Source: Gemmatimonadaceae bacterium (lineage in GTDB: Bacteria; Gemmatimonadota; Gemmatimonadetes; Gemmatimonadales; Gemmatimonadaceae). Taken from it: DNA of 64,000 nt. Under the pieces are notes generated by a model, which saw only the letters and a program-made list of their open reading frames with translations, searched no databases and was not told the origin of the DNA. Shown piece after piece: positions 1 through 51,263 of this stretch (positions are counted from its first letter, which is position 1; every line of letters begins with the position of its first letter). The translations under genes were made by a program, and so were the position numbers. The stretch spans positions 1 to 64,000 of the forward strand of contig DATNEW010000039.1 in NCBI GenBank assembly GCA_035606695.1. Reading direction: 5' to 3'.

Positions 1-191
1 CTCCGGTCGGAGTTCCGCTTGGTGAGCTCAGTTGCTCCTCCCTTCGGCGCTGCGCACCTCCGGTCGGAGTTCCGCTTGGTGAGCTCAGTTGCTCCTCCCT
101 TCGGCGCTGCGCACCTCCGGTCGGAGTTCCGCTTGGTGAGCTCAGTTGCTCCTCCCTTCGGCGCTGCGCACCTCCGGTCGGAGTTCCGCTT
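1..191 (-). repeat. Tandem 57-bp repeat, 3.3 copies
   Basis: Three identical 57-bp units begin at 1, 58 and 115, and a fourth breaks off after about 20 bp at 191. The array may continue beyond the left edge. On the minus strand each unit begins GCGGAACTCCGA and continues AGGTGCGCAGCGCCG then GGGAGGAG. This is the same family as the copies at 23705, 24546 and 51104. It lies directly downstream of the cystathionine beta-synthase gene. No CRISPR-like spacers are present because the units are contiguous. Confidence 0.9.
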
Positions 192-23704: not shown

Positions 23705-23749
23705 GCGGAATTCCGAGTAGAAGCGCGAAGCGCCGAAACGAGGAAGACC
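23705..23749 (+). repeat. Single diverged copy of the GCGGAATTCC repeat
   Basis: GCGGAATTCCGAG followed by GCGAAGCGCCG and GAGGAA, the same order as in the arrays at 51104 and 1-191, with the middle diverged. It lies between dnaN and the DUF4126 gene. Confidence 0.75.
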
Positions 23750-23775
23750 CGGCGTAGCAAGGGAGACCGGTCGAA

Positions 23776-24461: not shown

Positions 24462-24498
24462 CAAAGAGACGGCGCGCCCCCGAGAGAGCGCGCCGTCG
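24462..24498 (-). terminator. Terminator of the RNase P RNA gene
   Basis: On the minus strand, a 10-bp perfect stem GACGGCGCGC/GCGCGCCGTC (24489-24498 and 24468-24477) is followed by TCTTTG, immediately after the mature 3' end of rnpB. Confidence 0.7.
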
Positions 24499-24955
24499 AT
24501 CGCGAACCTGTAAGCCGGGTTCTGTGCGGCGAATGTGCGTTACGCTGATCGTTCCTCGCTCCGGCGCGTTGCACCATCGCTCGGAATTCCGCATACCACC
24601 TTCCGCCCGGTAGTCATTCCTCTCGGAGCGCGGTCGCCCGCGCCCTCTAGCAGCCTACCCGGAGTGTCTTGGTCGAGGTGGGCACCTCTCACTCCCTATT
24701 TGGCCTTGCTCCCGCTGGGGTTTACCCTGCCGCGTCTGTTACCAGCCGCGCGGTGAGCTCTTACCTCACCTTTTCACCCTTGCCGTCACCGAAGCGTACC
24801 AGTGAGTAGGCGGTGTCTTTTCTGTGGCACTGTCCGTCGCCGCTCGGCCGAAACCGCTCGACGCCCAGGCGTTACCTGGCAGCGCGCCCAATGGAGCCCG
24901 GACTTTCCTCGATCAGCGTTCAAGAACGCTAATCGCGACTACCCGGTAGGCGATC
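24498..24955 (-). ncRNA. rnpB: RNase P RNA, bacterial type A
   Basis: Catalytic RNA of RNase P. On the minus strand the 5' region has the hallmark GAGGAAAGTCCGGGCTCC then GCCAGGTAACGCCTGGGCG, and the 3' region has CACAGAACCCGGCTTACAGG. The hairpin AGCGTTC/GAACGCT before the CRI motif fits P3, and GATCGC at 24950-24955 can pair with GCGATC at 24498-24503 as the base of P1. The ends are estimates from that pairing. A TATATT-like -10 lies just upstream (near 24964). The segment between GAATGAC and CACAGAACCC is about 70 nt longer than in Escherichia coli and contains a dispersed repeat copy. Confidence 0.93.
24546..24592 (-). repeat. GCGGAATTCC repeat copy inside RNase P RNA
   Basis: 47 nt reading GCGGAATTCCGAGCG, then GGTGC, GCGCCGGAG and GAGGAACGAT on the rnpB sense strand. 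By eye 41 of 47 positions match the copy at 51216. It occupies the variable 3' region (P19 position) of the RNA. Confidence 0.85.
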
Positions 24956-51103: not shown

Positions 51104-51263
51104 GCGGAATTCCGAGCGCAGGTGCGAAGCGCCGGAGTGAGGAACGATGATCTTTGAGAGCGGAATTCCGAGCGCAGGTGCGAAGCGCCGGAGTGAGGAA
51201 CGATGATCTTGAAGAGCGGAATTCCGAGCGCAGGTGCGAAGCGCCGGAGTGAGGAACGATGAT
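51104..51263 (+). repeat. Tandem 56-bp GCGGAATTCC repeat, three copies
   Basis: Units begin at 51104, 51160 and 51216 and are nearly identical: GCGGAATTCCGAGCGCAGGT, then GCGAAGCGCCGGAGTGAGGA and ACGATGAT. The last copy runs into the start codon of the following gene. Confidence 0.93.

Follow-up and report, generated by a model that had tools for sequence, protein, structure and literature searches.

The window, a 64,000-nt stretch of a 5.9-Mb Gemmatimonadaceae genome, carries on its minus strand an rnpB gene with a copy of an interspersed repeat inside helix P19. We scored matches to the repeat with R1, a covariance model built from 30 copies. The features of the locus are as follows:

24495..24954, minus strand: complete, single-copy rnpB gene for class A RNase P RNA (Rfam RF00010, E 1.5e-87, 271.6 bits, model 1-367)
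24601..24608, minus strand: 5' side of the basal P19 stem, GGGCGGAA (alignment with congeners, fold)
24534..24600, minus strand: full extent of the insert as judged against five congeners, each border to within +/- 3 nt (rnpB of G000-G005 aligned with MAFFT)
24547..24592, minus strand: 46-nt unit of the interspersed repeat, located within P19 and oriented as the rnpB sense strand (R1 64.6 bits, E 1.3e-16; leave-one-out nhmmer E 4.5e-12; BLASTN E 3.3e-10)
24526..24533, minus strand: 3' side of the basal P19 stem, TTCGCCGC (alignment with congeners, fold)

The host gene is a class A RNase P RNA gene by its full-length match to the covariance model (271.6 bits, positions 1-367), and an Rfam model search of the whole 5.9-Mb genome returned this RNase P RNA gene alone. 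On the rnpB sense strand, positions 24592-24546 read GCGGAATTCCGAGCGATGGTGCAACGCGCCGGAGCGAGGAACGATCA. When compared with the repeat unit at 51216, this copy was identical at 41 of 47 positions, exactly the figure that an earlier, sequence-only reading had counted by eye. With a single array copy as the query, a genome-wide BLASTN search matched the rnpB copy at E 3.3e-10, and a profile built without the rnpB copy still recovered it in the window at E 4.5e-12 (nhmmer, leave-one-out). The similarity is thus far above chance.

Infernal placed the repeat as an insertion between GAATGACTACC, which closes P4, and ACAGAACCCGGCTTA; this is P19, where the sequence-only reading had put it. The alignment of rnpB from six genomes agreed, with a clean gap at the P19 apical loop and both basal P19 strands retained. 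That reading had also suggested aligning rnpB from relatives, and the segment from GAATG to ACAGAA proved to be 89 nt long in the window genome compared with 23-27 nt in all five congeners, close relatives without the insert. The 47 nt first proposed hold as the extent of the repeat copy but not of the whole insert, which against the relatives comprises about 67 nt: the 46-nt unit, about 8 nt on its left and about 13 nt on its right. An ordinary P19 helix had been expected to recur in all related rnpB genes, in genomes without other copies of the repeat; instead, P19 is plain and short in five out of five congeners, and the window genome contains at least 148 related elements. Overall, the interpretation as a repeat insertion is supported.

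The rnpB insert is known from one genome of the species. When 395 genomes sampled from the phylum were searched by pattern, no further rnpB with the repeat emerged, and we discarded the remaining pattern matches in these genomes as chance or unrelated rnpB sequence. When full-length rnpB was folded, 97.7% of the insert's pairing probability was internal to the insert. The 83-nt P19 arm folded alone did no better than shuffled sequence (z -0.86), so the case for an independent arm is built on the conserved structure of the family and on the locality of pairing, not on unusual stability.

The repeat folds on one strand

The repeat unit is 46 nt long, and members of the rnpB family start with GCGGAATTCC at the 5' end. 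The functional strand folds as TTCC / GA / GC / GNA / GGYGC - GNA loop - GCGCC / GNA / GY / GA / GGAA, a hairpin of 35 nt whose 11 canonical pairs fall into three segments and whose loop is 3 nt long. Among 30 aligned copies, 99.4% of cells were paired and three pairs showed two-sided changes; the covariation score was reached by none of 500 shuffles. Paired cells numbered 328 out of 330 in the sense strand versus 291 out of 330 in the complement, with RNA fold energies of -14.2 and -7.2 kcal/mol, respectively. The fold is specific to one strand because its G-U wobbles turn into A-C on the other.

The GA positions are nearly invariant among copies; they alternate with the canonical pairs and, judging from the sequence, could be sheared G-A pairs. 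Folding of the repeat with DNA parameters showed no stable hairpin; standard parameters may assign no stability to sheared GA pairs and GNA loops. Outer-stem pairing in the repeat flanks was not above that of shuffled pairs (p 0.19), and we found no Rfam family for the repeat. In longer variants at C44:49189, C35:132718 and C9:83821 (L125, L124 and L116), a nested GAGCGGAGCGA module replaces the apical loop, as if the hairpin were growing by modules.

Copies are dispersed through the genome

R1 detected 148 matches in the window genome (G000), including typical 46-nt copies, a GCGGAACTCCGACCG subfamily and a TGTC-tagged sister type (TGTCATCCCGAGCGGAGGCGCGAAGCGCCGNAGTCGAGGGACCCCC). Apart from the rnpB copy, these lie in the window:

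30..75, minus strand: repeat copy, GCGGAACTCCGACCG subfamily, in a period-57 array at the contig end (R1 66.2 bits)
87..132, minus strand: repeat copy, contig-end GCGGAACTCCGACCG array (R1 66.2 bits)
144..189, minus strand: repeat copy, contig-end GCGGAACTCCGACCG array (R1 66.2 bits)
23705..23750, plus strand: divergent copy of the repeat, flanked by dnaN and a DUF4126 gene (Pfam), 0.8 kb from rnpB (R1 56.2 bits)
51104..51149, plus strand: repeat copy, first of three in a head-to-tail array of period 56 (R1 72.1 bits)
51160..51205, plus strand: repeat copy, second of the 51104 array (R1 72.1 bits)
51216..51261, plus strand: repeat copy, third of the 51104 array, abutting an ArsC-family ORF (R1 72.1 bits; Pfam ArsC)

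The contig starts within the 57-bp array of the GCGGAACTCCGACCG subfamily (window 1-189), and contigs C27, C47 and C21 likewise end in repeat arrays. Because several contigs end inside arrays, the repeat probably breaks the assembly.

Our survey of neighbourhoods took in about 90 copies from 62 loci; genes were called by an ad hoc codon-usage finder. Most of these loci lie in short gaps between genes. Where the flanking genes are codirectional, 30 loci were in sense and 15 in antisense orientation (p 0.036), a modest sense-strand bias at loci other than rnpB. Head-to-tail arrays with periods of 45-62 occurred at 19 out of 62 loci. At C12:69044, the spacer repeats parts of the two outer flanks, which suggests that the arrays probably grew by local duplication. 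A copy with a longer hairpin (G000:C9:153286-153339, L129) lies in sense orientation between tRNA-Gly and tRNA-Val in a cluster of five tRNAs.

Repeat units also extend proteins in frame

Three head-to-tail units at G000:C26:167868-168027 (L142) encode 57 in-frame residues (VNAEFRAEVRSAEARNNQ-type) in the nucleotide-binding domain of an ABC transporter. This insertion is absent from all five congeners compared for rnpB, so insertion by the family is seen a second time. Three further in-frame units (G000:C41:59088-59253, L128) lie between the DinB_2 and FGE-sulfatase domains of one protein, and similar in-frame sequence is found at the end of a PRA isomerase. Among these three protein cases, the empty-site comparison with relatives covers the ABC transporter.

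Distribution among relatives

The presence of the repeat among relatives is patchy. R1 gave no matches in G001, G002, G003, G018, G020 and G026, eight in G004 and two in G078, which belongs to another genus; seven weaker matches in G005 resemble the TGTC-tagged sister type. We identified G020 as Gemmatirosa kalamazoonensis, its contig C3 matching plasmid NZ_CP007129.1 at 100%, and the window genome is in the same family, Gemmatimonadaceae, phylum Gemmatimonadota. The TGTC-tagged hairpin subfamily (L151-L169) is scattered through the window genome, and related hairpins occur in G005, G093, G156 and a Chloroflexi metagenome-assembled genome (MAG; L091). An exact-pattern search of reference genomes, in which the records nearest the window were possibly left out, returned a single genome, a Chloroflexi MAG whose hairpin is related but of the TGTC type. 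Plasmid records, phage records and viral contigs gave no match to the repeat.

The rnpB gene of Gemmatirosa kalamazoonensis (L077, minus strand, ~630-665) has an expansion in another peripheral helix, which contains the TGTC-REP-like GTGTCATTCCGGTGAAAGCCGGGAG. We considered the TGTCATTCCGGTGAAAGCCGG hairpin of this gene as a second case and dropped it, because that genome holds only about two further close copies.

Mobilisation and comparison with known repeats

The sequence-only reading had called the repeat mobile. This is correct in the sense that the rnpB copy was inserted since divergence from the relatives, but we found no Y1 transposase: the window genome, which is 99% complete, gave no matches to PF01797. 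Movement of the REP kind driven by RAYT is therefore unlikely, unless the enzyme was lost, and we dropped a Y1/RAYT transposase as the mobiliser. A MITE would be recognised by a target-site duplication together with a transposase's terminal inverted repeats. There was no consistent target-site duplication, and flanking direct repeats were overall not above shuffled pairs (p 0.18). One copy (C21:3237; G000, L148) has a shared AAATCAAAATG on both sides, which could be a target duplication or a local duplication.

The closest points of comparison are CGTC-tagged REPs, Rickettsia palindromic elements, GTAG REPs and cyanobacterial STRR repeats. CGTC-tagged REPs, which include Neisseria dRS3 and Rickettsia RPE-4 and RPE-6, have no dedicated transposase (Di Nocera et al. 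2013, PMC3733652), and we found no Y1_Tnp match here, the Y1 type being the one checked. Like them, the present repeat is short, palindromic, mostly intergenic and sometimes within ORFs, and its hairpins are likely transcribed. However, the terminal tag (CGTC, TGTC or CCTC followed by AT) occurs in the sister subfamily only, whereas the rnpB family begins at its 5' end with GCGGAA, and instead of a stem of 8-9 bp with a loop of 4-5 nt it has the 35-nt three-segment hairpin. In CGTC repeats, paired copies are head-to-head and head-to-tail pairs were called negligible (PMC3733652), unlike the head-to-tail arrays found here.

Rickettsia palindromic elements are about 150 bp long (PMC10969869). 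The present unit is also palindromic and also occurs in frame within protein genes, as in the 57 residues of the ABC transporter, but it is 46 nt long and comes from a different phylum, and we claim no sequence relation. GTAG REPs and REPINs are likewise high-copy extragenic hairpins beside genes; in contrast to these, the aligned copies have no GTAG at a fixed position, and the genome lacks PF01797 matches to a RAYT (Y1) enzyme. As a precedent for genomic repeats within an RNase P RNA gene, Vioque reportedly described STRR repeats in cyanobacterial rnpB in 1997. STRRs are short tandem direct repeats, whereas the present repeat is a dispersed, structured hairpin unit. In the part of the literature that our search covered, we found no description of this repeat family or of a REP-like element in Gemmatimonadota rnpB.

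Interpretation of the rnpB insertion

The analysis shows that the repeat copy is real, that the family is dispersed, that relatives have empty sites, that the strand-specific fold is conserved and that the only rnpB carries the insertion. We conclude that the 47 nt are very probably a copy of a new REP-like miniature repeat family that entered the P19 loop after the split from the congeners and folds as an independent arm. A segment of about 67 nt containing the unit would have entered the P19 apical loop after the split from the known congeners, copied in by a trans-acting enzyme or by another DNA-level mechanism. Since the repeat is in sense orientation, its copy in the rnpB transcript would fold independently, as an arm that extends P19 at a distance from the catalytic core. 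In our best reading, the insertion is tolerated because it lengthens P19, and the best-supported account of this tolerance combines a length-tolerant loop with self-folding of the sense strand. The enlarged RNase P RNA presumably still works; the repeat would be transcribed within the mature RNA and be functionally neutral there. For the family as a whole, the best reading is a miniature repeat without a transposase (no Y1 found) that behaves like Rickettsia palindromic elements.

We think it unlikely that the repeat is instead a selected regulatory RNA element acting at many loci, as an mRNA stabiliser or in processing or translation, with a functional copy in rnpB, for example for RNA stability. 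The covarying, strand-specific fold would suit such an element, as would the preference for sense orientation within strings of genes and the closeness of copies to their neighbouring genes. However, the sense bias is weak, and selfish or neutral spread fits better with the patchy presence among congeners, the locus-specific head-to-tail arrays and the in-frame ABC transporter insertion. The two readings are compatible, since a spreading element can acquire local functions.

Clearly less probable is that the insert is an intervening sequence, cut from the RNase P RNA after transcription like some rRNA helix insertions. RNase III can cut long hairpins that have inserted into the loops of stable RNAs, but here GA and GNA internal loops break up the hairpin, which is not a long perfect duplex.

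Ordinary lineage-specific growth of P19, resembling the repeat because both are GC-rich hairpins, is scarcely credible: although P19 segments in the other family genomes measured range from 20 to 51 nt and other rnpB genes carry unrelated expansions, the similarity statistics (41/47 identity; leave-one-out E 4.5e-12) already contradict it, the unpaired bases match as well (GCGGAA and the GA positions), and the congeners are all short. An assembly or binning artefact that joined a repeat copy to rnpB is just as improbable, even in a draft genome of 50 contigs, several of which end in arrays of the repeat, as the insert is far below the length of a typical read, occupies a loop between two intact P19 strands, is followed by an intact conserved 3' end and has private changes.

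Our preferred reading remains the insertion of a dispersed repeat. On this reading, rnpB is a clear example of an essential ribozyme that a repeat of the selfish type has enlarged, the sites being empty in five congeners. Within one genome, one repeat has enlarged a ribozyme and extended a protein in frame, each time at a place where the host molecule can probably accommodate another folded arm. The case offers a direct route into two questions: how RNase P RNA comes to have longer peripheral helices, and whether miniature repeats persist within genes by virtue of folding on one strand. It also places behaviour like that of Rickettsia palindromic elements outside Rickettsia, in a little-studied phylum and with no mobilising enzyme found in the search for Y1. 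More speculatively, and with considerable doubt, an undescribed class of RNA hairpins might spread in Gemmatimonadota without a dedicated transposase, its autonomous folding on one strand letting elements enter structured RNAs, tRNA clusters and protein loops and so build new ribozyme arms and protein loops.

The last unit of the 51104 array (51216-51262) ends in GAGGAACGATG, which may give the adjoining ArsC-family gene its ribosome-binding site and start codon.
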